The notes beneath the pieces were generated by a model that saw only the letters and a program-made list of their open reading frames with translations, had not been told where the DNA came from and searched no databases. Shown piece by piece: positions 13,676 through 29,396 of a DNA stretch of 44,440 nt. Both the position numbers and the translations under genes were made by a program. How positions within the stretch are numbered: the stretch's first letter is position 1; every line of letters starts with the position of its first letter. The stretch is from Halococcus salifodinae DSM 8989 (GTDB lineage Archaea; Halobacteriota; Halobacteria; Halobacteriales; Halococcaceae). The stretch lies in NCBI RefSeq assembly GCF_000336935.1, contig NZ_AOME01000026.1, positions 42,409-86,848 of the forward strand. Reading direction: 5' to 3'.

Positions 13676-14143
13676 ATGCCCCAGAGTGTAGCCAAGGAAG
13701 ATGGACTACGTGACGTAACACTCTCAGATGAATCACGGGTGCTTTCGATTGGACGAGACCGTCCGATCCGTATTAGCACTGGACATCGGATTCTCCATCA
13801 CGAGGGAAAGTGTAGCCGCCCTCATGGACACAACTACAAAATTGCTGTCACGGTTACTGGAACACTCCGAGAAGAGGGGTGGGTCGTCGACAAAGGTACT
13901 GTGACCGATATCGTTGAGGAGTGGGATCACCGATTTCTGCTCGAACGTGGTGACCCACTCATCGACGCGTTCGAACAAAGCGGCGATAGCGATGCCACTG
14001 TCGTTCTCGACCATCCACCCACGGCTGAGGTGATGGGTATTATTCTCGAAAACAGGTTACGAGACCGATTACCTGCATCGGTTAATGAAGTGGATGTTGA
14101 GGTGCGTGAGACAAGCGAACTGGGGACGCACCCCTCACGATAG
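13676..14143 (+). CDS. queD: QueD, 6-carboxy-tetrahydropterin synthase
   Basis: QueD converts dihydroneopterin triphosphate to 6-carboxytetrahydropterin, the second step of preQ0 synthesis. The 155-residue protein shows the family signature: zinc ligands His37 (in STGHRI), His50 and His52 (PHGHNY), catalytic Cys46 (GKCSRPHGH), WDHRFLL at 83-89, PTAEVMG at 115-121 and a C-terminal VRET near residue 143. The usual F-S-A-A-H is here I-S-T-G-H, but all catalytic residues remain. One base separates its stop from queE, so they form an operon. It may serve tRNA archaeosine as well, but here it heads a DNA-modification cluster. Confidence 0.93.
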   Translation: MPQSVAKEDGLRDVTLSDESRVLSIGRDRPIRISTGHRILHHEGKCSRPHGHNYKIAVTVTGTLREEGWVVDKGTVTDIVEEWDHRFLLERGDPLIDAFEQSGDSDATVVLDHPPTAEVMGIILENRLRDRLPASVNEVDVEVRETSELGTHPSR

Positions 14144-14144
14144 T

Positions 14145-14924
14145 ATGCCGGTCAGTTCAGAAGTCGATACGACCGAGAGACCACAGGATGGATCCGGAAC
14201 AGAGAGTCTCCCAATCAACGAACTCTTTTATTCGATGCAAGGAGAGGGTAAACTCGCGGGTATCCCGTCAGTTTTTGTTCGTACAAGTGGCTGTAATCTT
14301 CGCTGTTGGTTTTGCGATTCGTATCATACGTCTTGGGAACCCACACACGCATGGATGAGCACCGAAGAGATCATCGAAGAAGTCTCTACCCACACCAAAG
14401 CGGATCACGTCGTTATCACCGGTGGTGAACCGTTGATTCATGACGAAACGACAAATCTCATCGACACCCTCGCCAGCAGGGGTTACCATATAACAGTTGA
14501 AACGAACGGAACAATCTGCCCAGATGCGGCAATTGATCTCGCAAGCATCAGCCCGAAACTCTCTAGCAGTACACCCACAGCATCGAAAGATCCGAAAGGC
14601 GATGGCGAATGGAGTGAAGAGCACGAAGAGCGCCGGATCGATATGACGGCGCTGATGCACCTGGTTGAGAACTACCCGTTTCAACTCAAGTTCGTTGTTA
14701 CCTCTTCAGCGGACATTAAGGAGCTTAATGACATTATCGAGCGTATTCGTCAGCAGACAAGTGCTCGCGTGCGAAACAAGGACGTTTTGCTCATGCCGGA
14801 AGGACAGACTGAGGCCGAAATCGCACAGAAGCGTGCACAGGTTGCCGACCTCGCGATGGAACATGGGTATCGATACACTCCACGCCTGCACGTGAACCTC
14901 TGGAACGACGAAGCGGGAAGGTGA
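14145..14924 (+). CDS. queE: QueE, 7-carboxy-7-deazaguanine synthase (radical SAM)
   Basis: QueE rearranges 6-carboxytetrahydropterin to 7-carboxy-7-deazaguanine using a 4Fe-4S cluster and S-adenosylmethionine. The 259-residue protein has the canonical CX3CX2C motif at Cys50, Cys54 and Cys57 (GCNLRCWFC), the SAM-binding GGEP at 93-96 (VVITGGEPLI), and the N-terminal family signature INELFYSMQGEGKLAGIPSV that leads into it. I chose the ATG at 14145, one base after the queD stop, because the longer in-frame extension overlaps queD. The product feeds QueC. No key residue is missing. Confidence 0.93.
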   Translation: MPVSSEVDTTERPQDGSGTESLPINELFYSMQGEGKLAGIPSVFVRTSGCNLRCWFCDSYHTSWEPTHAWMSTEEIIEEVSTHTKADHVVITGGEPLIHDETTNLIDTLASRGYHITVETNGTICPDAAIDLASISPKLSSSTPTASKDPKGDGEWSEEHEERRIDMTALMHLVENYPFQLKFVVTSSADIKELNDIIERIRQQTSARVRNKDVLLMPEGQTEAEIAQKRAQVADLAMEHGYRYTPRLHVNLWNDEAGR

Positions 14925-14994: not shown

Positions 14995-15705
14995 ATGAAT
15001 AACAGACACACTCCGACAATGCACGACAACAATTCCAGCGAATCGAAGGCATTCGTTCTCCTCTCAGGTGGTATCGACTCGGCCGTTTGTTTGAAGAAAG
15101 CGTCTGAAGAGCACGATAGCGTCGCAGCTATCCATATCGACTATGGCCAGCAAACCGAAGACATCGAACGTGCCAACGCAGAGAAGCAGGCAGATGGTCT
15201 CGATATACCTCTCTACACCTGCAATTATCGCGCTGTATTCAGCGAATTCGCCGAAGGAACAATCGAGGACAAAGAGTACGACCGCGAGCACACGACCGAC
15301 GATGACCACAGCGTCGGATACGTTCCACAACGAAACCTCCATTTCCTCACAACTGCTGCTGCGATCGCCGAACACAATTCCGAGACTGGTGAAGATATTG
15401 TTCTTTATCACGGTGCCCAACAAAACGATGGAGAGGACTACCCGGACTGTCGTCCAACGTTTCTTGAAGTCGCTGAGAATGCGATCAACAAGTCGACTGA
15501 CCAACACATGATTCGAATCAATACACCGATCATCAACCACTCGAAGCCGGAAGTGCTGCAACTTGGCGAGCGCTTGGAGGTCGACTGGAAAGTCACATTC
15601 AGTTGCTACAACGACGAGAATGGAGACCCCTGTGGAGAATGTCCTGCATGTATCGAGCGGGAGGAAGCGTTCGAAAAGGCTGGCATCTCCGATCCACTCA
15701 CATAA
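14995..15705 (+). CDS. queC: QueC, preQ0 synthase
   Basis: QueC turns 7-carboxy-7-deazaguanine into preQ0 (7-cyano-7-deazaguanine) with ATP and ammonia. The 236-residue protein has the PP-loop SGGIDS at residues 24-29 (AFVLLSGGIDSAVCL), the conserved YVPQRN segment in the middle, and a C-terminal zinc site made by Cys204, Cys213, Cys216 and Cys219 (SCYN...PCGECPAC). A second in-frame ATG at 15019 is a possible alternative start and would still keep the PP-loop. It follows queE by 70 bases on the same strand. Its product is the base that the downstream TGT-like enzymes are expected to use. Confidence 0.93.
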   Translation: MNNRHTPTMHDNNSSESKAFVLLSGGIDSAVCLKKASEEHDSVAAIHIDYGQQTEDIERANAEKQADGLDIPLYTCNYRAVFSEFAEGTIEDKEYDREHTTDDDHSVGYVPQRNLHFLTTAAAIAEHNSETGEDIVLYHGAQQNDGEDYPDCRPTFLEVAENAINKSTDQHMIRINTPIINHSKPEVLQLGERLEVDWKVTFSCYNDENGDPCGECPACIEREEAFEKAGISDPLT

Positions 15706-16012: not shown

Positions 16013-16101
16013 GATCTCGGATTGTACGCCACTACACTTAGGCGTAGCTGCTCATCGCCATCTGTCTCTAACGAATACCACCGCTGTAGATTGAGCACCT
16101 T

Positions 16102-16109
16102 CATATACC
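16102..16109 (+). promoter_or_regulatory. TATA-like promoter of the DpdA-like gene
   Basis: CATATACC lies about 35-42 bases before the GTG start at 16144, inside the divergent space between the 99-aa gene and the DpdA-like gene. A GGTGA element about 10 bases before the GTG could serve as a ribosome binding site. Confidence 0.4.
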
Positions 16110-16143: not shown

Positions 16144-18351
16144 GTGCGCTTCTATGTCCCTGAGTGGGACGACCACGTAGACGCGGCGTACGATTTCGTC
16201 CATGATGAGCACTCGGACCTTTCTCCTGCAGACCGTGACCTCGCATACATCTGGGATGTCTTCGATCGCGAGTCGATACCGATCGATGGTGTCCTCATTT
16301 CTCGCGAACAAGTTGAGGACTCGCCCACAAAGTTCGACCGTATCACTTCACACGGTGTTTACGATGATCCACGCCTCGATCTCCCGGAGTGGCTCCCCAC
16401 GATCAGTGACTGTGGGGCATGGGGTTACAAGCAACTCCCTTTTCCACCGTACGGGAATTGGGACATGCTGGAGTTCTACGAGACGCTTGAGGTTGATGTC
16501 GGGGTCACAATTGATCATCTCGTCCTAGGCTCCGGACATACCAGCCGACTCTATCTTGATGATCGTGCCCTCGGCGACGAGTTTACCACCAGTGATCTCC
16601 CGGAATGGTTGGCCGAGAGTGATACTGACGTGATGACCGACACTTGGCCGGACGAGTGGCCAGACTACGTTGCTGAGTACGACTCTACACTCCGAGATAC
16701 TGCTGATAGCGAAGTCGACAGCTTCCGCGCTGCTGATTTCGAGGGAGAGAAACAAGACGTTCTCACGCGACTCAAAGATGATCCTCGGGCAGTGTATCGA
16801 GATGACGATATGGCCTTCCGGTACGAGTTGACTCTCGACAACGCCGCCGAGATGCAGGATTTTTACCAAGATGGTGACTATTCCTTCCGACTAATGGTCG
16901 CCATCCAAGGGTGGGACCCTGACTCCTACGAGAGAGCCGTTGAGGACGTGCTTGACTTGGGGTACCAGTACATCGGTATCGGTGGAGTTGCCGGAAGCAG
17001 CGAAGATGCCGTCAAACGCACAGTCTCTGCGGTCGGGAACGCGGTCAAACATCACGAGCGAACGTATCGTACGCGAATCGATACCCACGTGTTCGGGTTC
17101 GCCAAGACCGGCGCGTTCGATACGATCGGCCGTGCTGGCATGGCGAGTTTCGACAGCGCCAGTATGCTCCGTGCGGCGTGGACCGGTGGCGATAACTATC
17201 ACCTCGACAGCACTCGACGGTTCGATGCGATTCGAGTACGATACCCGCCGTACAGTGCAGACCTCGAAACCAGTATCGAGTGGGCACTTCGCGCTCAGGA
17301 ACTACTTATTGCGCTCCGGGCGTTCGATAAGGACGAGTCGATCGTCGACGCCCTCCGTTCATGGCAGGATACTGCGCTCACAGCCCTTGCCAATCTCCCC
17401 ATGTATATCCGTGAGCACCGGCACGACGCCCAGTTCGACGAGACGACGCTTCGGCCTATCACGAGTTCCTTCCGTGATCACTACGAATACGGACGTGAAC
17501 TCAAAGCCAATTTCAGTGATGACTTCCGGACTCGACTCATCAAACTCCTCCGCGACGACGGCTCCGAGAATCCCCTTTCGTTCACTGCGTACAAGAATCT
17601 CATCAAGACGGCCACTGAGGTAATCGAGGGTCGCGCCCCGACGAAGATCGACACTATCGAGCGCCGCGAGACAAACACTGGGACGGTCGGAACGTTTGAC
17701 CAACTCTGGGTACTCCTCGAAACGTATGCCGAGTTCGTCGGAGACGGGAACAATCTTGATTCCTACGAGCGCGTCCTCCGGGCCGAACCCTGGAGGGAGT
17801 GTGACTGTACTATTTGTCGTGAACATGGCATTGAAGTCGCCATCTGGCGTGGGAACAATCGCAACCGCCGACGTGGGTTCCACAACACGCAACGCTTCTA
17901 CGATCAGTTCGAGCGTGCCTTGCCGAAGGTGCTGGTCATCACCCGTGGGAGCAGTGCGCTTTCACGGAGCGATACTGGCGAAGAATATCTCCGGGATGAA
18001 CACGAAACGCTCTGGACGCACGTTCATGACCTGCCCGTCGCAGAGATCGGCGTCGCCACCGCCGATGGGGTCCAAGAGTGGTGGGACGATCCACCGACGA
18101 CGATCTCACTCGATATGGATTGGATGGCGGACGAGCTTGCGACCGTCTGTGAGCGGTATCAGGACCTCTACGTCGATGGAAGCGATTGGACGCTTCCTGA
18201 GAAGGTTCGCTCGGCCCTCGAAGAGACAGACTGCACAGTCCACGTCCACGAGGAACCTAGCGAACTACGCAGCGCCGTGCTCAGTCGTCTGGGCTACCAA
18301 GAATCGTTCCTCCCGAAACATCTTCAGCAGTCGGGTCTTACTGAGTTTTGA
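16144..18351 (+). CDS. dpdA: DpdA-like DNA guanine transglycosylase (TGT superfamily)
   Basis: DpdA is a DNA-acting relative of tRNA-guanine transglycosylase that swaps guanine in DNA for preQ0. This 735-residue protein has the full TGT active-site outline in a diverged sequence. TISDCGAWGY (86-95) matches the first catalytic aspartate region (Asp89), AIQGW (253-257) the substrate-recognition loop, and YIGIGGVAGS (276-285) the GGLA loop. GMASFDSASMLR (332-343) holds the likely nucleophile Asp337. A zinc site is formed by Cys553, Cys555, Cys558 (CDCTIC) and His580 (FHN). About 150 further residues follow the zinc site. I chose the GTG start because the protein begins MRFYVPEWDD directly after a GGTGA element. 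The next gene starts 2 bases after its stop. Action on DNA rather than tRNA is inferred from similarity and context. Confidence 0.85.
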   Translation: MRFYVPEWDDHVDAAYDFVHDEHSDLSPADRDLAYIWDVFDRESIPIDGVLISREQVEDSPTKFDRITSHGVYDDPRLDLPEWLPTISDCGAWGYKQLPFPPYGNWDMLEFYETLEVDVGVTIDHLVLGSGHTSRLYLDDRALGDEFTTSDLPEWLAESDTDVMTDTWPDEWPDYVAEYDSTLRDTADSEVDSFRAADFEGEKQDVLTRLKDDPRAVYRDDDMAFRYELTLDNAAEMQDFYQDGDYSFRLMVAIQGWDPDSYERAVEDVLDLGYQYIGIGGVAGSSEDAVKRTVSAVGNAVKHHERTYRTRIDTHVFGFAKTGAFDTIGRAGMASFDSASMLRAAWTGGDNYHLDSTRRFDAIRVRYPPYSADLETSIEWALRAQELLIALRAFDKDESIVDALRSWQDTALTALANLPMYIREHRHDAQFDETTLRPITSSFRDHYEYGRELKANFSDDFRTRLIKLLRDDGSENPLSFTAYKNLIKTATEVIEGRAPTKIDTIERRETNTGTVGTFDQLWVLLETYAEFVGDGNNLDSYERVLRAEPWRECDCTICREHGIEVAIWRGNNRNRRRGFHNTQRFYDQFERALPKVLVITRGSSALSRSDTGEEYLRDEHETLWTHVHDLPVAEIGVATADGVQEWWDDPPTTISLDMDWMADELATVCERYQDLYVDGSDWTLPEKVRSALEETDCTVHVHEEPSELRSAVLSRLGYQESFLPKHLQQSGLTEF

Positions 18352-18353
18352 GG

Positions 18354-19061
18354 ATGCGTGTACTCGTCGTCGACCAGTGTTCGGGATCGAAGCAATCGCC
18401 CGAATGGTTCGACTCGTTTGACGCCGAGACCATCGACGATTTCTCCCTCCCCGAACTCCGTGAGCGGGAACGGACGCCGACCTATTCCGCTCACGACCTC
18501 TATACTGGCCGTCAACAGCAGTATATCGACGTAGCCGTTGATCGTCTTCGGGAGTCCGGAGACACCGTTGATCGCTATTATATCAGTGCAGGATTCGGTT
18601 TCGTTGGTGAGGCGACCGAACTCCCGCCCTACGAAGTGACGTTCCAAGACTACGATACTGAGAGCGTCCACGAGCGATCCTCGGAACTAGAGATCCAGAG
18701 CGACCTGCTCAATCGACTAGACGACGACCCCGCCTACGATCTCGTCTTCCTTGCACTCGGGAGTGACTACTACGAGGCACTCGACCTCTCCCGACTGCTT
18801 GATACATTCTCCGACTCGACGATGGTCGTGCTGTTCAATCGTGAAGCCGACGCCGAGCAACGGCCAAATGTCATTTCCATCCCCGCACGAACGGCCGAGG
18901 CGAAAGAACAGGGAAGTACCGTTATTGGACTAAAAGGACAGTATCTAAAGCAATTTGCCGCACACAGGGCGGAGGGTACAACGATCGATTCTTTCACGGA
19001 AGTCGTCGAGTACTGTACGACGGAACCAACACGCCAGTCCGGACTCGGTTCGTACGACTAG
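18354..19061 (+). CDS. CSGSK-motif protein (DUF6884/YaaA-like)
   Basis: The 235-residue protein starts MRVLVVDQCSGSKQSP. It has an early Cys-Ser-x-x-Lys motif, then a central HDLYTGRQQQYI and YYISAGFGFVG segment and a strand DLVFLALGSDYY. This pattern fits DUF6884/YaaA-like proteins, some of which act in nucleic-acid-linked systems. The start lies 2 bases after the dpdA stop (a TTG two codons earlier would overlap it), so the two are one operon. In bacterial Dpd clusters a separate protein, DpdC, converts the inserted preQ0 base to its amide. By position and fold type this gene could do that or a related step, but I cannot show homology to DpdC. Confidence 0.65.
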   Translation: MRVLVVDQCSGSKQSPEWFDSFDAETIDDFSLPELRERERTPTYSAHDLYTGRQQQYIDVAVDRLRESGDTVDRYYISAGFGFVGEATELPPYEVTFQDYDTESVHERSSELEIQSDLLNRLDDDPAYDLVFLALGSDYYEALDLSRLLDTFSDSTMVVLFNREADAEQRPNVISIPARTAEAKEQGSTVIGLKGQYLKQFAAHRAEGTTIDSFTEVVEYCTTEPTRQSGLGSYD

Positions 19062-19342
19062 TCGCCGCGGGAGTTTTGGAGAAACTCATCTACTTCTTCG
19101 AGATGGGTGAGAAACGTTTCCCCATCCTGAGTGAGCGAATACCGGACGTTGCGTGAACTCCGCTCTTCGCGCTCAACTAACCCGTACTCTTGGAGCGTTT
19201 CCAATCGCTCAGTCACTACATCGCTCGATGTCGGCACAGCATCCTCAATCGTACTGAAGTTCGATTCGTCGTGTTCGCTGAGATAGTCTAAGATCTCCAG
19301 CGACCGCTTCGGACAGACTACTTCGTCGACCGCGGAGTGCAT
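19058..19342 (-). CDS. Winged-helix regulator
   Basis: The 94-residue protein starts MHSAVDEVVCPKRSLEILDY and has a winged-helix fold: helix FSTIEDAVPTSSDVVTERL as the DNA-reading unit, then the wing YGLVEREERSSRNVRYSLT. It resembles small HxlR/PadR-like haloarchaeal regulators. A longer start at 19417 is possible, but it would run through the palindrome and promoter of the divergent gene. It overlaps the end of the CSGSK gene by 4 bases on the other strand. It probably binds the GCTTTGT/ACAAAGC palindrome at 19405-19422 and controls the second TGT operon. Confidence 0.72.
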   Translation of the reverse strand: MHSAVDEVVCPKRSLEILDYLSEHDESNFSTIEDAVPTSSDVVTERLETLQEYGLVEREERSSRNVRYSLTQDGETFLTHLEEVDEFLQNSRGD

Positions 19343-19404
19343 ACTCTTGGCGTTGCCCCCGCTCACTATACATCCTCCGTCCTCAGTACCTCCTCGCCGT
19401 GATT

Positions 19405-19422
19405 GCTTTGTCCACACAAAGC
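19405..19422. promoter_or_regulatory. Perfect palindrome at the promoter of the second TGT operon
   Basis: GCTTTGT-CCAC-ACAAAGC is an 18-base perfect inverted repeat touching the TATA-like GCTTTAACA (19421-19429). That box is about 30-38 bases before the ATG at 19460. The divergent neighbour encodes a winged-helix protein, so this is a strong operator candidate. Confidence 0.65.
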
Positions 19423-19459
19423 TTTAACACGGAGCCCGAGCTACCCGAGCGCGTCGCGC

Positions 19460-20494
19460 ATGCTGTACAGACAACGAACGCTCAACACGCCACACGGGTG
19501 CATTAAGACGCCCGTCCTGTTCCCGGTTCGGAACATCGGCAAACGATCCTCCGACAACACGCCAGCGTACGCCGATGCGATTCCGGACCTTCGGACAGCG
19601 ATGGTGAATGCACGAGCGATCAGACAACGTGATCCACAGTGGAATCGCCTCCTCAACGGGGCTACTCTCCGTGAAGAGATGGACATCCCAGAGGAAACCG
19701 TCATCTTCGCCGACAGTGGGGGGTTCGACTTCCAAGCGGGAGACGTCGACACTACCCCAGCACGGACGCTCGAAACACAGCGTCAGATCGGCGCGGACAT
19801 CCTCGGGACGGTAGATCGGCCCATCTCCCGAGAGAACCGAGACAGGGAAAACCAGCGGCGCATCTCCGATAGTGCGGAGTATGCCGTTGAAGCGAGTGAC
19901 GAACATGACGGTGAGGAATTACTGTTCGCCAGTATCCATGGTCTCGATCCGGAGACGGTACAGAACAACGTCCGGTACTTAGAGCGTAACGGCGATTTCG
20001 ACGGGTACGCGCTCGGGAGTCTCGTTCCGGTCAGAACAGATTACAAAAAGGTGACAAGTATAATACTTGCGGCCAGACGGGCGACCGACAAGCACCTGCA
20101 TGTGTACGGATTGGGGGGGTTAGTATACCAACCCCTACTGCTGTACCTGGGGGTCGATAGTTTCGACTCCTCGGCATTTATCCGGAGCGCTGGAAACCGG
20201 AATTATCTGGTTCCAGGGTTTGGTGGTCAGGAACTCAAACACGTCACCGAACTCTCGTACCTCCCGTGTTCGTGCCCAGTCTGTCGTGACACGCCGTTTA
20301 CGGAGTTGCGTGAGGATCGTAATGCCCTGACGAAGCACAATCTCTGGGCGCTCACGATGGAACTCCGACGCTTCCGCTACATGGTTGCTGCCAACGAGGA
20401 CGTGGAGGCGTACCTCGACCTACGGTTTCAGGGTAACGAGGTCACCAAACGGGCGTACCGACAGGCGAAACAGCAGGTCAGGAGACTCACGTGA
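19460..20494 (+). CDS. Second TGT-superfamily transglycosylase
   Basis: This 344-residue protein is close in length to a classical TGT catalytic domain and has no PUA domain. The active-site set is complete: FADSGGFDFQ with Asp85, GYALGSLVPVR (182-192) in place of GGLAVGE, GVDSFDSSAF with the probable nucleophile Asp236, and zinc ligands Cys270, Cys272, Cys275 (CSCPVC) and His293 (TKHN). It is clearly distinct from the 735-residue DpdA-like enzyme 1.1 kb upstream. I chose the ATG at 19460 from its spacing after the TATA box. It could be a second DNA transglycosylase, a subunit partner as in eukaryotic heterodimeric TGT, or an enzyme with another 7-deazaguanine substrate. The downstream gene overlaps its stop. 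Confidence 0.85.
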   Translation: MLYRQRTLNTPHGCIKTPVLFPVRNIGKRSSDNTPAYADAIPDLRTAMVNARAIRQRDPQWNRLLNGATLREEMDIPEETVIFADSGGFDFQAGDVDTTPARTLETQRQIGADILGTVDRPISRENRDRENQRRISDSAEYAVEASDEHDGEELLFASIHGLDPETVQNNVRYLERNGDFDGYALGSLVPVRTDYKKVTSIILAARRATDKHLHVYGLGGLVYQPLLLYLGVDSFDSSAFIRSAGNRNYLVPGFGGQELKHVTELSYLPCSCPVCRDTPFTELREDRNALTKHNLWALTMELRRFRYMVAANEDVEAYLDLRFQGNEVTKRAYRQAKQQVRRLT

Positions 20495-20496
20495 TA

Positions 20497-21399
20497 ATGA
20501 GCGACGAACGCCCAACCATACGACCTGTAACGCTGGCGCGACTCGTGGAAACGTCCCATATCTGCGAGGATGGCCCACGGACGCTAGAGGACATCAAATC
20601 GGCACTTGATGTGACCCACCGCCGCGCCCGTGAAACTACTCTCGAGACACTGCGGATCGGTCTGCTCGGATCGGAACAGCAAGAGGATGAGGACGAAACG
20701 TATGAGAGTACGCATATTGGCGATCGATTTCTTGAGGCGGTTCGTGCTGAGGAGTGGTCCAAGGTGAGTGACGTGCTCGCCACGCAAAGCCCACACTACA
20801 GTGCGTTTCTGGAAGCACTCGACAACGTTGCCCCTGCCTCGCTTGAAGCAGTGCTCGAAGAACTCGAATCGCTTGAAGAATTCACCAACCATTCGTACAA
20901 CCAAACGAGTGTCGAGGTCGTGGGCGACTGGGCTGAACGCCTCGGTACTGTTCAGCGGAATTCGTTTACGGGGGGCTACTACTCCGTCGAGCGGAACGTA
21001 GTACCGTCGAATTTCCCGTTCGCGCTGCTCGCGGTGTACGACGATCTCGAAGAGACGGCAGGCGTCGACCTCCGACAACGATACCTCTCGATCCCGTTGC
21101 TCCGAGAGCACTTCTGTGAACGTCATGGCTGCCCCCGAAGTGTCTTCGACGAGGCGCTGAGACGACTTGCTCAGCAGAACGTTGGCCATATCGAACTCTC
21201 GGGAGCGCCGATGGATACGGGGGCGAAAGAGGCCCAGCTCGGCATCAAGGAGATCGACCTCGGAAGTAAGGAGGGTCTCGTCACGACCGACCAATCCACC
21301 GAGCGCGTGATGGCCGGTATCGAACAGTTCGGCAAACAATACTACTACCTCGCGGTCTACGACCGCAACCTCACCTTTACTCAGGAGAAAGAGACATGA
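20497..21399 (+). CDS. Hypothetical protein with winged-helix-like N terminus
   Basis: The 300-residue protein starts MSDERPTIRPVTLARLVETS. Residues about 10-75 look like a winged helix (TLEDIKSALDVTHRRARETTLETL). The rest is helical and acidic with a conserved-looking SFTGGYYSVERNVVPSNFPF segment. A GTG at 20491 would give a four-base overlap with the preceding stop and is equally possible. The next gene, an ATPase, overlaps its stop by ATGA, so the three-gene unit TGT - this protein - ATPase is translationally coupled. I do not recognise a family. A DNA-binding adaptor for the ATPase is a guess. Confidence 0.65.
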   Translation: MSDERPTIRPVTLARLVETSHICEDGPRTLEDIKSALDVTHRRARETTLETLRIGLLGSEQQEDEDETYESTHIGDRFLEAVRAEEWSKVSDVLATQSPHYSAFLEALDNVAPASLEAVLEELESLEEFTNHSYNQTSVEVVGDWAERLGTVQRNSFTGGYYSVERNVVPSNFPFALLAVYDDLEETAGVDLRQRYLSIPLLREHFCERHGCPRSVFDEALRRLAQQNVGHIELSGAPMDTGAKEAQLGIKEIDLGSKEGLVTTDQSTERVMAGIEQFGKQYYYLAVYDRNLTFTQEKET

Positions 21400-22550
21400 C
21401 CAACGATACATTCAGCATTACGGACGAACAGCGCGACTACTCCCAATTCGGCTTAGAGGAGAATCCCTTCCCATACAGTCCAGTTCCGGATAACGACCCA
21501 GCACTCTACTGTGGGCAGGAGCACGCCACGAGAGCCATCAGCGACACCGTCTCGACGATGCTCTCGACCGGGAAGTCGAAGCATCTCGTTGTCACCGCAA
21601 AGTACGGAAATGGGAAGTCACACACGCTCAAGTACACACGCTCGCTCGTGCGCGACCGTGAGGATGTCGTCGTCGGCTACGTCGCCCAGCCGGGCGAAGG
21701 TTTCCGCGATATCTATCACGAGTTCGTCTACGATCTCGGGTTCGACCGCATTCAGACGCTCGCTTACGAGTACCTCGCTCAGGTGGCCCGCAACACCACC
21801 GATTGCAATCCAACGGACGCAAGCACGGTAGAGCAACTAATCGATGACGGTGAAGTATTACTATCGGAACTGGTTCCGGAGGCTGTCCAGCAACTCAACA
21901 ACGTGACGAAGTTCGCTGACTTCGCTCGTGCGATCGTACATATGGTGTACGAGGATACGAACCTCTACGCGTGGCAGTGGCTCACTGCCGAGGGCATTCG
22001 CTATGAGCAGCGCAAAGAAATGGAGATCCATAGTGCACTCGACGACGATACTACCAGTGTCCGAGCGTTCACGGCGCTGAAGAACCTCCTGCTTGATCTC
22101 GGTTATACAGGTGTTTTCGTTTTCGTTGATGAGTTCGAGAGCATTGCTCGACTCAGCGCGAAAGCCGAACAAGCGACGCTGAACAGCATCCGTCACTTGA
22201 TGGACCAGAACAGTCATGGTCTCTGTATGCTCTTTGGGTGTGCACCGGAGGTCTGGCAGGACGTAATGAGCGAGTACCACGCGTTCTCTGAGCGTATTGG
22301 GCAAGAAGTGGCCCTGCGACCACTAACCGACGACCATATCAACAAATTGGTGTCAACGTATATTGCTCCCGCACGGACAAATGGAACAGGGGGTGTTGAT
22401 CCATTCACCGAAGAGAGTCTCTCAATAATACACCAGCGATCACAGGGGAACATCCGACAGGTTCTCTCTGTGTGTAGCCGGGTACTCGATGCGGCAGTCG
22501 ACGAAGAGCGATCGAGGATCGACGCCGATTTCATACAGGAAGAAATATGA
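21396..22550 (+). CDS. P-loop ATPase (AAA/Cdc6-like) of the modification island
   Basis: The 384-residue protein has a nucleotide-binding core: AKYGNGKS at 68-75 acts as Walker A, with Ala where the first Gly usually stands, and FVFVDEFES carries Walker B with Asp245-Glu246. A sensor-like segment CMLFGCAPEVW and a C-terminal winged-helix-like tail (QRSQGNIRQVLSVCSRVLD) follow, as in ORC/Cdc6-type and related DNA-remodelling ATPases. The N-terminal segment YSQFGLEENPFPYSPV is typical of this class (F-G-L-x-x-x-P-F). It overlaps the upstream gene by ATGA. The likely role is a DNA-loading or motor ATPase working with the TGT-like enzyme or the effector proteins. Confidence 0.82.
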   Translation: MTNDTFSITDEQRDYSQFGLEENPFPYSPVPDNDPALYCGQEHATRAISDTVSTMLSTGKSKHLVVTAKYGNGKSHTLKYTRSLVRDREDVVVGYVAQPGEGFRDIYHEFVYDLGFDRIQTLAYEYLAQVARNTTDCNPTDASTVEQLIDDGEVLLSELVPEAVQQLNNVTKFADFARAIVHMVYEDTNLYAWQWLTAEGIRYEQRKEMEIHSALDDDTTSVRAFTALKNLLLDLGYTGVFVFVDEFESIARLSAKAEQATLNSIRHLMDQNSHGLCMLFGCAPEVWQDVMSEYHAFSERIGQEVALRPLTDDHINKLVSTYIAPARTNGTGGVDPFTEESLSIIHQRSQGNIRQVLSVCSRVLDAAVDEERSRIDADFIQEEI

Positions 22551-22619: not shown

Positions 22620-23273
22620 TCAGATCTGCGGTCGGTGCCACGTTTTCAGGAATACCCGCCCGCTGTCGGTTATCGAGACATTCTTCAACCGACCGTTCTT
22701 GCTGGCCGAGACGAATCCCTCGGATTCAAGGCTACTGACATGGCGGGCTATCGTGCTCTTTGATTTGTCCAATCCGTCTGCTATTTCGGTGATGGAAAGT
22801 GGCGTATCCAGCATACCTAGATCTGCTAGCAACCCTGCCTCGGCGTCTGAAACGTTCCCTCGGAGGTTCAGCTGAGGGAGCCGTCGAACGCTGCTGTCGA
22901 TATCTCCTATCTGAAGGATGGTGTCCACATCATCTGTAGCGGTGAACGTCGCGATGGTCAGAGGGAGAAGTAATTCTCGTGCACCTCCACCAAGAATGAC
23001 AATTGTCTCGCCGTCAGACGCCTGTATGAGGTCGGCACAGTGTAGCGTCGTTTCTACGAAATCCGAGTAGGGTAAGGTTTCAGCTACTGGGTCGAGATCG
23101 GGAACGACCTGTGTAAGGATGTCCTCTACCTCCTCGAGCGCGCTATCTCCTTGATCTGATCCGGTAGCGGGTTGTAACAACAGGATGTGGTCGCCGGTGT
23201 CAAGACCTTCGCTTAAAACTGGCCGTACTACACGTCGACTGTCGAAACCAAGTGGCGCTAGATAGGTGCGCAT
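22620..23273 (-). CDS. csa3: CARF-domain winged-helix regulator (Csa3-like)
   Basis: This 217-residue protein begins MRTYLAPLGFDSRRVVRPVL, the signature start of Csa3 proteins. The first 130 residues form a CARF-type Rossmann domain with the GGGARELLLPL segment that usually contacts the ligand. Residues about 150-217 are a winged helix (LSITEIADGLDKSKSTIARHVSSL). Csa3 proteins in CRISPR loci bind cyclic oligonucleotides and regulate transcription. No CRISPR array or cas gene is in this window. It lies on the opposite strand between two island operons, so it may adjust them in response to a second messenger. GAAGGAG lies just before the start as a ribosome binding site. Confidence 0.82.
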   Translation of the reverse strand: MRTYLAPLGFDSRRVVRPVLSEGLDTGDHILLLQPATGSDQGDSALEEVEDILTQVVPDLDPVAETLPYSDFVETTLHCADLIQASDGETIVILGGGARELLLPLTIATFTATDDVDTILQIGDIDSSVRRLPQLNLRGNVSDAEAGLLADLGMLDTPLSITEIADGLDKSKSTIARHVSSLESEGFVSASKNGRLKNVSITDSGRVFLKTWHRPQI

Positions 23274-23712
23274 GTTTTTGCTACTCCTTCGGATGGTCGT
23301 TACTGTTCCGCTTCAACGCAACAGTGGGAGTGAAATCTGTATAGAATCAGATTCGGATTGGTGGCAAATGGATCAATTAGCCCAGATATACTGCTTTGTC
23401 GTTCCAGATCACCGCAACTGTCCCGTGTTTGTTGCACCGTCGGCAACTATTTGATTGTTCTCATGGTACTGCCAAGAGTTCGCACGCTATTCCAGGATGA
23501 TGTCGCTTCCTGGAACGAGGAGAGCCATCTGTGCGAACATAAAATAAAAAATTCCGACAGGTTCAAACCAACTGCCCCTGAAGGATATGTGATCGCATCC
23601 CGTTCGACGCGGCCTAAAACGGCTGTATCGTTCCGTAGCCACGGCTACGACTAATGGATGCGTGCAGTCGGCGTCCATCCCACATCGACGCCGAACCCAA
23701 GCACACCAGACG
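23274..23712. promoter_or_regulatory. Control region before the effector operon
   Basis: These 439 bases hold no convincing gene. They contain an AT-rich patch (AAAATAAAAAAT, near 23541-23552) and a hairpin or operator, CGTAGCC-AC-GGCTACG (23634-23649), about 64 bases before the next ATG. Promoters for both the CARF gene and the seven-gene effector operon must lie here. Confidence 0.45.
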
Positions 23713-24579
23713 ATGATGGACCCACCCAACACAGAGACGCCCGCGATAGCGGAATTCATCGGCACGCGAGACTCGTTTGTCGTGATGCGAGATCCGCAAC
23801 TCGCAAAGACTGGAACGCAAGCACGTGCGCAACTTCGGACGTTGCCGTTGCTGGCAGAGTTCGAACTTGGAACGGTTGCTCACCCCGGAATCTACGACAA
23901 CGGATTGCGCCTCGTCGAATACGACATGGTCGCAAACGAGTCGCTGCGAGAGAACGGTGTGGACAACGTTGAGTTCCCTCTCGTTCACTACATCAGCCAG
24001 GAGATGCTGACTGGTGAGCTACAGGACGAGGAGCATACCTTCGACGATCAAGACATCGTTCGCCAACTGCTACGGGACAGACCTTCAGGGGTCCCCTACC
24101 TGCTTGTCACCGATACGAGCACGCCAACGATGCCCAGATATACGAAGAAACCAGGGAAGTCGTTCATCGATGAGTTCGAATGTACGGTTGTCGATCATAA
24201 AGCGCTGCTGAAGCGCTACCTACAGTACAATCTCGATTCGGACCTTCCATTGTCCACGACTCAGAACCTGTACTTCCATCAGATCTCTGCCCATCACAAG
24301 GCGGCGGAGTTAAACGCGGGGTCCATCCCGGAACTATTCGACTACACACAAATTCCTGCTGATAGTCCAGTCTGGGGTCCCCTGTACTATCTCATCCGCG
24401 AGGATGTCGATAATGTCCTCGAGGATTACTCCGAGCGTATCAGGGAAGCGCTCCGGTCGTGGACCGAACGCGGGCCGACCCAGCAGGTCGCCAACCGAAT
24501 GATAGACATGCTCGAGTTGGTGGAATTCGAGGAAGAACGACTCGACGACTACCGCTATCGTCATCAGGAGAACGAATGA
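23713..24579 (+). CDS. Hypothetical protein, first gene of the effector operon
   Basis: The 288-residue protein starts MMDPPNTETPAIAEF (a second ATG follows at once). It is acidic, with a mixed alpha/beta N-terminal half and a helical C-terminal third (LIREDVDNVLEDYSERIREAL). Two segments stand out: PRYTKKPGKSFIDEFECTVV and LSTTQNLYFHQISAHHKAAE. I do not recognise a family and see no catalytic motif. It overlaps the next gene by ATGA. As the leading gene of an operon with ATPases, helicases and a nuclease, it is probably a structural or recognition subunit. Confidence 0.65.
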   Translation: MMDPPNTETPAIAEFIGTRDSFVVMRDPQLAKTGTQARAQLRTLPLLAEFELGTVAHPGIYDNGLRLVEYDMVANESLRENGVDNVEFPLVHYISQEMLTGELQDEEHTFDDQDIVRQLLRDRPSGVPYLLVTDTSTPTMPRYTKKPGKSFIDEFECTVVDHKALLKRYLQYNLDSDLPLSTTQNLYFHQISAHHKAAELNAGSIPELFDYTQIPADSPVWGPLYYLIREDVDNVLEDYSERIREALRSWTERGPTQQVANRMIDMLELVEFEEERLDDYRYRHQENE

Positions 24580-25502
24580 GCACAACGTACACATCGGCTA
24601 AGACGAAACCAGACAAGTTACTCACCGGGTTCATCTCGGTGCGAGCACCGGAATTAAAGCATATCCACAACGCCATTCAGAGCGCAACCAGCGTCAACGA
24701 ACTGGCGAGTAAGTTTGGGCGTCCAACTGACAACGGGATCGAATCCGATCACGTCGAGGATACAGTGCGGTTCCTGAACGCGGTCGATCTCGTTGAGAGT
24801 CCCTCAGGGGACATCAGGAGCACGGTCGAACGCATCAACGAGTCTCAGTTCGGTGGACTCCAGTTCGAAGCGCGATTGTTGTATCACTGCAACCAACAGG
24901 AGGGGCGACAGACGCACTTCGCTGATGTCTACCGTGCGCTGCTGACTGAGGAAAACAGGATTGTGAGTGGCAGTCAAGATGACTTGCGTACCATCCTGAA
25001 GCGCGAGACAGACTACACCTTCAGTTGGACCGACGAGAAGATCGATATGTGGGTGACGCTGTGTGAGCAACTGGGGCTGTTAACTGAGACGGAAGACGAA
25101 CTCGTCCTCAGCCCCTGTCGTGCTTTGGCATACGACGCTCTCGTACTCGCTCCGACGACCTCCAGCGAGGAACCCAGTTACGACGACGTGGAAGTAACGG
25201 ATGGAGAGTTCCGGCGAGCACTCGATTGGATAAACGACAACCTCTTCGCGGTGTATGAAGAGCGGGCAGGCACTCCGCGTGTCCACCCCACGATCGCCGA
25301 CGTGCTGCGGAATATGGAGGATGACGGTGTAATTTCTCTGTCGAATCCCGGTGACTCGCAGAACGCGGTCGAGATTCCACCGGAGGACCTCGACGACGAC
25401 GTTCGCGGAAACCGGCGTGACGCGACGCGCGTTTCGATCCACTCGCGCCCGGACGAAACGGCCTATCAGTACCCCCTCACCCAGTTCCTGACCCGACAAT
25501 GA
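24576..25502 (+). CDS. Hypothetical protein (possible DpdG-type subunit)
   Basis: This 308-residue protein starts MSTTYTSAKTKPDKLLTGFI. It is helical and acidic and looks like tandem winged-helix units (for example QTHFADVYRALLTEENRIV and VHPTIADVLRNMEDDGVISL). It overlaps both neighbours by ATGA. A protein of about 300 residues directly before a large ATPase is reminiscent of the DpdG-DpdH order I recall from bacterial Dpd clusters, but I cannot confirm homology. A role as partner or DNA-recognition subunit of the next gene's ATPase is an inference from coupling. Confidence 0.62.
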   Translation: MSTTYTSAKTKPDKLLTGFISVRAPELKHIHNAIQSATSVNELASKFGRPTDNGIESDHVEDTVRFLNAVDLVESPSGDIRSTVERINESQFGGLQFEARLLYHCNQQEGRQTHFADVYRALLTEENRIVSGSQDDLRTILKRETDYTFSWTDEKIDMWVTLCEQLGLLTETEDELVLSPCRALAYDALVLAPTTSSEEPSYDDVEVTDGEFRRALDWINDNLFAVYEERAGTPRVHPTIADVLRNMEDDGVISLSNPGDSQNAVEIPPEDLDDDVRGNRRDATRVSIHSRPDETAYQYPLTQFLTRQ

Positions 25503-28500
25503 ACAACAGCGTTCAACAACCCTCGACCGCCGGCGAGATGGACCGCTACTGGGATGACGACGAGATCGACCATTTCATCACCTCGGAAGCCCACACAGCC
25601 AAGAAGACCCCCGAGCAGTTCAAGGAAACTCACGTCGACATCGACCGGATCTACGCCGATACGCTCACTCCAGTGGGCGTCTCAGGGGACTTCGTCACGC
25701 AAAACGACATCCTTGAATCCATCACGGCGTCGAATCTTGAGGATCCAAACCGAATCTTCATCGTCCGTGGGGAACCCGGTTCTGGAAAGAGCCAACTCTG
25801 TGAGTGGACGAAGTACCAGATCAACGGCTACGGAGAGGACGACAACGGTGTCGAGGACTACGTGGCACTTCACGTGTCTCGAAGCCAGACTCGGATGGAC
25901 CAGATCATCGATGTTCTCACCGAACCCCTAGACGTCGATCCCGACGTGCAGAACATCGACGATCTCGACCCGAACGACGCTGCGAGTGCCATCGTCGAGT
26001 ATATGCGCGGTATCTGGTCAACTAATCACCTCACAGACCAAGACGTTCAAGAACTCACTAACAAACGAGACAACAAGAGCGACCTTCGTGAAATCTTCGC
26101 GAAGAACATTCAGAAGTACCAGGACGCTCTTGAGTCTCGTGACGAGAACCCTGACTTCAACCTCCTCACTCGCTCCGACTTCCGGGACCTTCGGCTCCAG
26201 ATGAGCTTCAGCGACAAACTCACCGAGAACAAAGATCTGCTCTATACGGTACTCAAGAACGAGGCCCACGAGTACCTCTCTCGAAACCTGGTTGGAGACT
26301 TCAAGGAACAACTCCAAGAATACTCTCAGTTGTACCAAGAGCAGGACATTCGGCCGGTGCTCATCTGTGAGGACCTCACGACGTTCAGTGTCCTAAAAGA
26401 ACAACTCCTCGACCACATCTTCGACCTCAGCAGCAGCCACTACGACATCGTCCTCGGGTGGACGATCGGTTGGGAACAGGACAACATCGACGACGCGATG
26501 ACTCGCTCGGACGCGGCTACGTACATGAAAGGCCGTTCCAAGGGATATCTAACGATGACCAACGAGAACGGCGAGGCTTACTTCCTCGACGACGACGCCT
26601 CTGTCGAACTCACGCGGTCATACCTCAACGCTATCAAACGTCACTCTGGAAGCCAAAGCACTCCGGATGGCGTCGAAGAGTCCTTCGACGGACTGTATCC
26701 GTTCAACGAACGGTTCGTCAACATCGCCTACCGCCAGCTAAACGACGAAGGTAGTAACCGAAAGACGCCCCGCCTGCTTTTGCTGCGGGTCGTGAAACAC
26801 TGCCTGAAGTCGACCTGGCCACCCTACAAGGCGATGAAGTCGAACTCGTTCGTGGACACGCCCACGTTCGAGGTCGACATGAAGTACGACCAGATATACC
26901 AAGACGTCAGTCGCTGGTACGGTGTTCCCGTCGAGGGCGGCATCGGTGTCAAGACCGATGTCTTCGATGCCTTCGGTATCGAACTCCCCAACAGTGGAGA
27001 AGCGCCCGCGAAAGATGACTACGTTGTCTTCGATAAGGGAAAAGGAAGTGCCGTTCTCGACAAGATCAAGAACCCGCCCGCGCCCGAACACGAGATCGAC
27101 GAGGAAGACGACGGTGACGAGCAAGAGGGCGAGGACAATGGCCCCGAAGACGACGAAGGCGGGGACGAAGAGGACGACGAGGTCGATGTCACCGACGAGT
27201 CCGAACTATCGGAAGAGGAGCGTGAGCGCCAGCACAAGTTCCAAGAGTTCCAAGACTGGGTGATCAGCGGCGAAGAATATCCGAGTTCGGACACGCTACA
27301 CGACGGGGCCATAGAGACGCTCGAACGCGGTCATGACCCGAGCCGTCTCGGGAATCCGAACGCGTCGACGCGCTCTGCGAGCGCGATCTACTACGCTCGC
27401 GGCGACAGCATCCCGGTGTCCATCCAGGGAGACCAGCAGCGTCAGGCGAACATCGACATCGAACTTGAGTGGGGGGCAGAACACGCAGACCTCTACACTC
27501 CGATGCTCGAATACGGTCTCTTCGAGACGTTCGATACCACCGACACGAACTTCGACCAGTTACGCGCGTGGGCAGACACCAATGTTGCGCAGTTCAAGCA
27601 AGATATGCGCGAGGAGGTCGAAGACTGCCTCCCCGAGGGACTCACCATCGAGAAGACGCTAGTTCTGGGGCAGATCTTTCTCATCAACGCCGCGAGGGGG
27701 ACGGAGATCGAAAAGGACAGCCTATCGACACAGCTCGTTTTCGAGGACTACGAACACGACCAATCGTACGGGAAGCCGATCGTCGATGAGTTCGAGCGCG
27801 ACAGCGCGTTCGGGGAAGCGTTCACGAACCTGGGCGCGTCTTCGAGCGATATCAGCGATCTCATTGAAGGGTTCTTCCTGCTCAAGTCGAATGTCGTCGA
27901 CTACGAGCGCTTAGCAGAAGCACGACGTGAGGTCGCGGGCAACTTCGAAGCCCACGTCGACGACGCGATGATGATCGATACAGGTGATCTGCCCGACGCA
28001 TACAAGATCGGCTCGACTCGCAATCAGGCCAACACCAATGTATCGACACTATTCAGCCGCATCTCGGACTACGCGACTGAAATACAGCGTCTCACAGCCG
28101 AGCAAGACGCATCCCATATCCGGGAGGCTTTAGAGCCGGTCGAGCGGTGGCACGACAGTAGTCACACGGTCGACGACCTCGTCGAGTGGTTCGAGACGCT
28201 TTACACCTGCGCTGGCACGATGGACGTCACCATCAAGTCGAGCTACGAAGACGCCCACGAGACGCTTACCGAATCGCCTGGCGAAGTAAAACTCACATCC
28301 TTCGGTGAGGACGTGGAGAAGTTCCAGAGCATGGACGACGCGACTGGAACGACGCTCGTCGCACGCCTGCACGACTTCGCTCGCAGCAGCCACGAGCAGG
28401 GGGCCTGGGACATATACGAAGCACTCGACTCGCTCATCGACGAACTTCAGGATCAAGAGCATTCGACTGGGATCGACCTCGAACACCGAATCCAGCAACT

Positions 28501-28564
28501 CAACGAGTACACCGAGTACGAACGGAAGCGGCAGGATGTCATCGGAGTCACGGAGGATTTGTGA
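25499..28564 (+). CDS. Large P-loop ATPase (possible DpdH/Pbe-type)
   Basis: The 1021-residue protein has a clear Walker A, GEPGSGKS at 91-98 (FIVRGEPGSGKSQLCEW), and a Walker B-like strand PVLICEDLTTF near residue 285. An extremely acidic linker (about residues 530-575, almost all Asp/Glu/Gly) divides it from a helical C-terminal half. The N-terminal part resembles large STAND- or BREX-like defence ATPases in layout. It overlaps the upstream gene by ATGA; the next gene starts 1 base after its stop. It is likely the energy-using core of the effector complex. Bacterial DpdH is described as an ATP-binding protein of similar size, but homology is untested. Confidence 0.75.
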   Translation: MNNSVQQPSTAGEMDRYWDDDEIDHFITSEAHTAKKTPEQFKETHVDIDRIYADTLTPVGVSGDFVTQNDILESITASNLEDPNRIFIVRGEPGSGKSQLCEWTKYQINGYGEDDNGVEDYVALHVSRSQTRMDQIIDVLTEPLDVDPDVQNIDDLDPNDAASAIVEYMRGIWSTNHLTDQDVQELTNKRDNKSDLREIFAKNIQKYQDALESRDENPDFNLLTRSDFRDLRLQMSFSDKLTENKDLLYTVLKNEAHEYLSRNLVGDFKEQLQEYSQLYQEQDIRPVLICEDLTTFSVLKEQLLDHIFDLSSSHYDIVLGWTIGWEQDNIDDAMTRSDAATYMKGRSKGYLTMTNENGEAYFLDDDASVELTRSYLNAIKRHSGSQSTPDGVEESFDGLYPFNERFVNIAYRQLNDEGSNRKTPRLLLLRVVKHCLKSTWPPYKAMKSNSFVDTPTFEVDMKYDQIYQDVSRWYGVPVEGGIGVKTDVFDAFGIELPNSGEAPAKDDYVVFDKGKGSAVLDKIKNPPAPEHEIDEEDDGDEQEGEDNGPEDDEGGDEEDDEVDVTDESELSEEERERQHKFQEFQDWVISGEEYPSSDTLHDGAIETLERGHDPSRLGNPNASTRSASAIYYARGDSIPVSIQGDQQRQANIDIELEWGAEHADLYTPMLEYGLFETFDTTDTNFDQLRAWADTNVAQFKQDMREEVEDCLPEGLTIEKTLVLGQIFLINAARGTEIEKDSLSTQLVFEDYEHDQSYGKPIVDEFERDSAFGEAFTNLGASSSDISDLIEGFFLLKSNVVDYERLAEARREVAGNFEAHVDDAMMIDTGDLPDAYKIGSTRNQANTNVSTLFSRISDYATEIQRLTAEQDASHIREALEPVERWHDSSHTVDDLVEWFETLYTCAGTMDVTIKSSYEDAHETLTESPGEVKLTSFGEDVEKFQSMDDATGTTLVARLHDFARSSHEQGAWDIYEALDSLIDELQDQEHSTGIDLEHRIQQLNEYTEYERKRQDVIGVTEDL

Positions 28565-28565
28565 A

Positions 28566-29396
28566 ATGTCCAGTACCCAATCGCTACCCACAGTCGTGGA
28601 GGCTCTCGAAGACAAGGTCAAGACGCACAAGCAAGCAGAAAACACCCAGTTCCACGTCTCAGTCGCGAAGCACAACATCAACGAGGTCAACAGCGAACTC
28701 GACGATCTCATCGAAAGTCTCGAAGATCTTCGATACTACAAGACGGTTTTCGAAGAGGCACTCGACGGTTCAGCGCCGACAATGACTAATAGTGCTGGAC
28801 AGACCGCCAAGAAGGCGGCCGAGGCGACACAGGGGGAACTGCTGGAGAACGCCCAGAGTGGTGAAATCACCGATGACGAGGGTGAACTCGGCTCCGACGA
28901 CGATAGGGGCAACCCGAAAGTTGAGTTGACTCCGGAGATAGAGAAGCAGATCGAGCAGATTCAGTCAGCGAAGCGTCAGGCCGATAACGTAATTGAGCAA
29001 ACTGGGCGTCAGATCGAGTCCAAGCAAGAGAAATGGAATACGAAGGTCAATGCCGCCGAGGAACTCCAGAAGATTCTCGGAGGACAGAACAGGGACTTCT
29101 CGCGTACACTCAACCATATGCACAATCTCCTGAATGAGGAGTTGATGGACTCGAGCGGGTCGGCATCGAACTTCGTCTCCCAGTGGAAGAACGCAGTGAA
29201 AAGCTGGGAGAAGCATCAGTCGCTTCAGAGTTTCGATGACTTCCAAAAGAAGCACGATCTCTCCGACTCGACCGTTGAGGACGTTAAGACACTCAGCCAG
29301 TCTCGGAAACTCACGTTGGCAGACGTCTCACTCGATAGCGTCGAGGAGATGAAGCGCGTCGACGAACTCGAGTCGGCAGTCGAACTGAATCTCTAA
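28566..29396 (+). CDS. Coiled-coil protein of the effector operon
   Basis: The 276-residue protein starts MSSTQSLPTVVEALEDKVKT. It is mostly helical, with heptad-rich stretches (about residues 15-70, and ELTPEIEKQIEQIQSAKRQA onward) separated by an acidic, low-complexity segment around residues 95-120. I see no enzyme motif. I chose the ATG at 28566, one base after the ATPase stop; the longer open frame overlaps that gene. The next gene begins 2 bases downstream. It probably bridges the ATPase and the helicases, in the way small coiled-coil subunits do in other defence complexes. Confidence 0.68.
   Translation: MSSTQSLPTVVEALEDKVKTHKQAENTQFHVSVAKHNINEVNSELDDLIESLEDLRYYKTVFEEALDGSAPTMTNSAGQTAKKAAEATQGELLENAQSGEITDDEGELGSDDDRGNPKVELTPEIEKQIEQIQSAKRQADNVIEQTGRQIESKQEKWNTKVNAAEELQKILGGQNRDFSRTLNHMHNLLNEELMDSSGSASNFVSQWKNAVKSWEKHQSLQSFDDFQKKHDLSDSTVEDVKTLSQSRKLTLADVSLDSVEEMKRVDELESAVELNL

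Follow-up and report, generated by a model that had tools for sequence, protein, structure and literature searches.

Two divergent transglycosylases in one DNA-modification cluster

Why would a single archaeal DNA-modification cluster encode two enzymes of the tRNA-guanine transglycosylase (TGT) family? To our knowledge, bacterial Dpd and viral systems have been described with one DNA transglycosylase. The question is raised by a 44,440-nucleotide stretch of Halococcus salifodinae DSM 8989 (contig NZ_AOME01000026.1, positions 42,409 to 86,848; hereafter the window), in which genes for a 735-amino acid (aa) DpdA and for a 344-aa TGT-family protein, named TGT2 here, lie in one cluster (Table 1). 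We consider it somewhat probable that this cluster is a BRIGADE-type, Dpd-like marking and restriction system, in which TGT2 acts as a second DNA-directed transglycosylase together with a winged-helix protein (P4) and a BrxD-like ATPase, beside DpdA and its DpdC-like partner.

The 735-aa protein scored above the cut-off of the curated DpdA model NF041059 (261 versus 200 bits) and matched the solved DNA-guanine transglycosylase (DpdA) structure 7ui4 (139.5 bits, E = 1e-39). With 29.9 bits, TGT2 fell below the same DpdA cut-off. It scored 101.6 bits against PF01702 (cut-off 26.3), in keeping with the fold, aspartate pair and zinc site of the TGT superfamily. Its best family was TIGR00432, the equivalog model of the archaeal tRNA transglycosylase (arcTGT), yet the score of 147 bits did not reach the 350-bit cut-off. 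An alternative TTG start, giving 363 aa, was proposed by the open reading frame (ORF) tool; the ATG of the 344-aa form is the start conserved among relatives, and homologues of TGT2 are 341–346 aa long.

In an alignment with the Pyrococcus horikoshii arcTGT (1iq8), residues D85, D236, C270/C272/C275 and H293 of TGT2 correspond to D95, D249, C279/C281/C284 and H307, and they are invariant across 46 TGT2 proteins. Likewise, D89, D337, C553/C555/C558 and H580 of DpdA align with 7ui4 and are invariant across 43 DpdAs. The residues that a first-pass annotation of the window had listed for both enzymes are therefore correct. As identity between the two is as low as 25%, over ~100 aa, the residues and profile matches also support its view that two divergent TGTs, both with apparently intact active sites, are encoded in one DNA-modification cluster.

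The only hint of a different base or sequence context came from the base pocket. The position of 1iq8 Q169, which is Gln in arcTGT, is His in 42/42 haloarchaeal TGT2s, and that of G196 is Ser in 41/42; Gln and Gly are retained in the TGT2s of the methanogen group. Since 7ui4 likewise has His at the first of these positions, this residue would suit a DNA enzyme that inserts preQ0 (7-cyano-7-deazaguanine), and the pocket changes leave room for another base.

TGT2 is not a tRNA arcTGT by descent

A tree of 38 rows placed 19 arcTGTs in one clade (support 100/100) that excluded TGT2, and the haloarchaeal and methanogen-group TGT2s in a separate clade (99/97). An approximately unbiased (AU) test rejected the topology in which TGT2 is held with haloarchaeal arcTGT (p = 1.7e-56). 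The groups also stayed apart in a wider tree that added DpdA, phage and bacterial TGTs, in which the branches were long. TGT2 is thus not a tRNA arcTGT by descent, and the tree and AU test together reject a recent arcTGT duplication as its origin. A nesting of the 344-aa protein inside arcTGT, which the first-pass annotation had held to be fatal to its proposal, was not what these analyses returned. An arcTGT and ArcS are encoded on another contig of the same genome.

TGT2 resembles arcTGT in its catalytic fold, aspartate pair and Cys3-His pattern. Its AlphaFold model (predicted local distance difference test, pLDDT, 90.4) superposes on 1iq8 with a Z score of 38.5. As the model covers only residues 17–357 of the 577 residues of 1iq8, TGT2 lacks the entire C-terminal region of arcTGT with its tRNA-binding domains. 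From arcTGT it also differs by its separate clade and its location in a defence cluster. The isoelectric point of TGT2 (5.73) is higher than that of the compared stretches of the more acidic haloarchaeal arcTGT (4.67), which is weak evidence compatible with a nucleic-acid surface.

TGT2 co-occurs with DpdA and forms a three-gene unit

Among 392 Halobacteriales genomes, 51 encode TGT2, 52 encode DpdA and 50 encode both; two weak DpdA matches were left out of this count. The Fisher test (p = 1.2e-59) ignores relatedness, and its p-value is a guide only. The sole genome with TGT2 alone (G079) carries a decayed unit with a P4 remnant of 68 aa, while two genomes have DpdA alone (G185 and G231), the cluster of G231 lying at a contig edge. 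More distant TGT2s (37–39% identity) were found in four further genomes of the phylum, all of the methanogen group. These had been taken as cases of TGT2 without DpdA; this was wrong, as DpdA lies on the same island, 17–23 kb away, in three of the four. In the fourth (G456), neither BrxD nor DpdA is present; in two further loci, also distant, the pair is closer together. The DpdA-TGT2 pairing is therefore more general than one genome, extending over some fifty relatives among the archaea and over certain methanogens. Methanoregula sp. UBA471 and numerous type strains of haloarchaea are among the named loci, and the pair is found, for example, in Haloferax gibbonsii ATCC 33959 and Haloarcula sinaiiensis ATCC 33800.

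An alignment-based scan for TGT2 returned 38 true loci; Helicobacter and other matches below 30% identity were set aside, as they resemble ordinary bacterial TGTs. Single-sequence scans of the genome and viral collections gave nothing, probably because their patterns were too specific. Since the alignment scan found no TGT2 in IMG/VR and phage records held only distant phage TGTs, a viral origin of TGT2 is unsupported.

The P4 gene starts two bases after the TGT2 stop codon and is overlapped by four bases by the BrxD-like gene; the three genes are complete in 39 of the 40 named loci. The AlphaFold model of P4 (pLDDT 88.5) has a MarR-like winged helix-turn-helix (wHTH) at residues 12–85. The position of dpdA varies: it is on the strand opposite TGT2 in 3/34 named loci and kilobases distant in others. 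Pairwise distances of TGT2 correlated with those of BrxD at 0.80, of P4 at 0.78 and of DpdA at 0.65, values that only rank these neighbors, as no outside control gene was included. This completeness, the varying place of dpdA and the closer agreement with BrxD and P4 suggest that TGT2, P4 and BrxD act as one unit beside DpdA-DpdC. The DpdC-like gene overlaps the end of dpdA and is fused with it in many relatives (open frames of ~970 aa). In archaeal systems, the ATPase that accompanies TGT2, together with a winged-helix protein, is of the ORC/Cdc6 type.

Individual clusters show further features. On Haloarcula sinaiiensis pHsi139, dpdA and TGT2 are separated by a gene with an EVE domain, which may read modified bases (L105, 11576–12049). 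One plasmid of Halospeciosus flavus bears two clusters (L158 and L174); dpdA is split into two frames in one of them and TGT2 in the other, by either sequencing error or complementary decay. Genome G323 has a second DpdA-DpdC locus with no TGT2 nearby (L075, 7753–10700) and a full cluster elsewhere.

Relation to known systems

BRIGADE was described as a hybrid of Dpd and ARMADA in halophilic archaea (Bell et al. 2025 preprint, PMC12458937). The window resembles it as presented in the main text of that preprint, with two YprA-type helicases, preQ0 biosynthesis genes, a PLD-like (phospholipase D-like) nuclease candidate and a haloarchaeal host. Indeed, QueD, QueE and QueC occur with two DruE/DpdJ-like helicases, the combination of 7-deazaguanine biosynthesis genes and two YprA helicases that marks BRIGADE. 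For its nuclease (PLD or PD-(D/E)XK), the window gave only weak PLD-type matches. In contrast to the "nearly identical" helicases of BRIGADE Type II, those of the window are 36% identical, and, unlike the haloarchaeal BRIGADE, two-TGT islands with YprA-like helicases are also present in methanogen-group archaea. The main text of the preprint names no TGT enzymes, no second TGT and no TGT2-P4-BrxD unit. The class of system is thus known (BRIGADE/Dpd-like), and no description of the second TGT and its unit was found in the literature examined, which for BRIGADE was that main text.

As in bacterial Dpd (DpdA-DpdK), DpdA and DpdC-like, DpdH-like and DpdJ-like proteins are encoded in the window; PADLOC scans did not find the other Dpd subunits. 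Unlike bacterial Dpd, the cluster has an extra TGT with its own wHTH/AAA+ unit and no DpdB. The absence of a DpdB-like partner, noted in the first-pass annotation, extends to the whole genome, in which the DndB/DpdB family (PF14072) had no match anywhere. This family was also unmatched in 18/20 of the TGT2 genomes searched, and one genome (G585) has a weak match outside its cluster. In bacterial Dpd, insertion is described as depending on the ATPase of DpdB, although some clusters can dispense with it (PMC12839542). BREX-Related Capture (BRC) systems likewise combine a TGT with a BREX-type ATPase and multi-HTH DNA-binding proteins; however, HerA and PglZ form their core, and neither DpdB nor DpdC figures in their description (PMC12839542), whereas the window has DpdA, a DpdC-like protein and YprA helicases.

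A possible role for the TGT2 unit

A working scheme can be drawn from the protein families. QueD, QueE and QueC would make preQ0, DpdA would exchange guanine for it in DNA, and the DpdC-like protein would process the inserted base, with the amide dADG (2'-deoxy-7-amido-7-deazaguanosine) as the probable product. TGT2 would be a second active transglycosylase on DNA, positioned by P4, while the BrxD-like AAA+ ATPase might remodel the duplex and make the guanine accessible; in this way, the TGT2-P4-BrxD unit would replace the ATP-using DpdB of bacterial Dpd. Each TGT may mark its own sites or strand, and the predicted restriction arm (YprA, DpdH and PLD) would spare self DNA only when both marks are present.

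DNA hairpins with an exposed target G are modified by a bacterial tRNA TGT (PMC10103133). DNA is therefore a possible substrate for TGT chemistry wherever the guanine can be reached, and the missing step on duplex DNA would be access to the base, which we infer is supplied by P4 and BrxD. The first-pass annotation had suggested that the smaller enzyme replaces DpdB as a partner. Its two apparently active TGTs, the lack of DpdB and the separate promoters stand, but any replacement of DpdB would seem to be the whole unit rather than TGT2 alone as a QTRT2-like partner, because the unit brings an ATPase, as DpdB does, and because TGT2 keeps its active site, which QTRT2 has lost.

A further-reaching version, possible but doubtful in our judgment, is a two-mark epigenetic immunity in which the two TGT modules write different 7-deazaguanine marks (in base, strand or context) and only doubly marked DNA is spared. 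If the proposed role is true, a conserved second TGT tied to dedicated DNA-binding and ATPase proteins would reveal how TGTs reach duplex guanines without DpdB, and the working of DpdB-less archaeal systems would be explained.

Alternative explanations

Several observations weigh against a second DNA-directed transglycosylase. Co-occurrence is silent on the role of TGT2, which might instead partner DpdA or serve as a subunit for structure or sensing, and the fold matches of P4 outside the wHTH are weak. DpdA may work without TGT2, as genome G185 has the former and not the latter, and genome G082 carries a DndB-like gene over the cut-off within its cluster. Moreover, split-type arcTGTs are known in Methanosarcina (PMC11298593), so that the missing PUA region alone is no proof of a DNA substrate. 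The same enzymes could be cited, along with the arcTGT fold (Z 38.5) and TIGR00432 as the best family, for TGT2 being a recruited tRNA or RNA transglycosylase that, for example, makes archaeosine precursors or marks RNA during infection. Given the separate arcTGT and ArcS of this genome, the separate TGT2 clade and the strict linkage of TGT2 to a DNA-modification and defence cluster, we regard an RNA enzyme as highly improbable. That TGT2 is a redundant passenger copy on a mobile island with no distinct role is scarcely credible: several copies are on plasmids and decayed copies exist (G079), but all functional residues, the protein length and the three-gene unit have been kept across deeply diverged lineages.

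Known TGTs are dimers, and TGT2 might be a stoichiometric partner of DpdA in a heterodimer in which one subunit holds the DNA and the other exchanges the base. If the two interact, two TGT paralogues would serve one pathway, as in eukaryotic QTRT1/QTRT2, and both the near-perfect co-occurrence and the TGT2-DpdA distance correlation would fit. However, one subunit of QTRT1/QTRT2 is without catalytic residues, whereas DpdA and TGT2 both retain the full active site. Their genes appear to form separate transcription units with separate promoter-like elements, and in several loci they are on opposite strands or kilobases apart. TGT2 also follows P4 and BrxD more closely than DpdA, and while DpdA is commonly fused to DpdC, no fusion of it with TGT2 was observed. 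We therefore find a heterodimer unlikely. Quite unlikely, too, is a place for the unit in a sensing or restriction arm, where TGT2 would test DNA for the mark or remove it from foreign DNA and the ATPase would load the YprA helicases. BrxD is tied to a helicase in type-2 BREX, for which helicase loading has been proposed (PMC12839542), and the unit is separated from dpdA by its own promoter-like element; the invariant catalytic residues nevertheless suggest chemistry beyond binding, and the unit keeps its place beside DpdA or close to it in loci whose restriction genes are ordered differently.

Putative promoters of the two transglycosylase genes

As far as can be judged from upstream sequences, each TGT has its own promoter, as had been proposed, with conserved TATA-like boxes for TGT2 (n = 30) and dpdA (n = 42). 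The two patterns differ, as dpdA combines a TATA-like element at −45 to −38 with GGTGA at about −14 to −10, and the spacing of the TGT2 box would fit a leaderless haloarchaeal transcript. A palindrome stands directly before the TGT2 box in 10 loci, including the window, and its arm sequences differ between loci. Use of the two TGTs at different times is thus possible. A sigma-70 promoter scan was disregarded, as it is not meaningful for archaea.

Gene content of the cluster

The features of the cluster are listed in Table 1.

Table 1 Predicted genes and promoter elements of the two-transglycosylase cluster, in positions of the window
Feature	Position	Strand	Evidence
QueD (preQ0 synthesis)	13676..14143	+	PF01242 74 bits; TIGR03367 72 bits, below its cut-off
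QueE	14085..14924	+	TIGR04349/TIGR03365 98-105 bits; phrog_2076 200 bits
QueC (preQ0 synthase)	14995..15705	+	PF06508 176 bits
TATA-like element of dpdA promoter (ttcatata)	16100..16107	+	A+T peak (-45 to -38) shared by 42 distinct upstream regions of dpdA
DpdA, DNA-guanine transglycosylase, 735 aa	16144..18351	+	NF041059 261 bits; 7ui4 139.5 bits
DpdC-like DUF6884 protein	18348..19061	+	PADLOC DpdC E 6e-8; PF21818 E 1.7e-4, under its cut-off
Small winged-helix regulator, divergent from TGT2	19058..19342	-	Translation; homologue divergently adjoins TGT2 in 14/69 loci
Perfect palindrome gctttgt-ccac-acaaagc, putative operator of TGT2 promoter	19405..19422		Similar palindromes in 10 loci
TATA-like box of TGT2 promoter	19423..19429	+	A+T peak (about -37 to -31) shared by 30 distinct upstream regions
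TGT2, small TGT-family enzyme, 344 aa	19460..20494	+	PF01702 101.6 bits; model Z 38.5 to 1iq8
P4, winged-helix protein	20497..21399	+	No Pfam match above noise; AlphaFold model; beside TGT2 in 39/40 named loci
BrxD-like AAA+ ATPase, third gene of TGT2 unit	21396..22550	+	PF10923 62 bits; 39/40 named loci
Csa3-type CARF-wHTH regulator	22620..23273	-	TIGR01884 73.8 bits
P9, conserved, unknown family	23662..24579	+	Homologues in several clusters
P10, conserved (start hand-picked from 347-aa ORF)	24576..25502	+	Homologues in several clusters
DpdH-like ATPase	25499..28564	+	PADLOC DpdH E 2e-5
P12 (start hand-picked)	28566..29396	+	ORF and position
YprA-family helicase 1	29399..34927	+	PADLOC DruE and DpdJ, E down to 3e-38
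YprA-family helicase 2 (start hand-picked)	34954..40404	+	PADLOC DpdJ and DruE, E down to 3e-32
PLD-like nuclease candidate (start hand-picked)	40397..42370	+	Weak PADLOC DrmC/ZacB matches, C-terminal part

The QueC of the cluster is the only strong QueC match in the genome (others scored at most 26 bits), whereas the eight other genomes searched each have a separate QueC of ~240–258 bits. In this genome, the preQ0 needed for tRNA archaeosine may therefore come from the island as well. The Csa3-type CARF regulator, also found within the cluster in several relatives, hints at cyclic-nucleotide control of this defence cluster.

Other clusters with several TGT genes

Plasmids of Nostoc NIES-3756 and Picosynechococcus PCC 73109 also carry two TGTs per cluster (L108, 8746–17263, and L134, 1074–9403). 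Here DpdA has an extra N-terminal part, which is DpdC-like in the Nostoc protein, and the small TGT, which has lost its zinc ligands, sits between two DEAD helicases. A plasmid of Haladaptatus sp. YSMS36 (L106, 15956–29235) has three TGT genes near DUF6884, PLD and DEAD helicase genes; two encode proteins of 650–670 aa with a C-terminal DUF6884-like part, and the third, of 352 aa, adjoins an ATP-binding protein. The same pair of small TGT and ATPase is present on a Natrinema plasmid. We regard the cyanobacterial, Haladaptatus and Natrinema cases as leads. Finally, a plasmid of Haloplanus sp. HW8-1 encodes a divergent TGT-like protein (L138, 11485–12465) in a BREX-like cluster with QueC, QueE and QueD, which resembles BRC systems.

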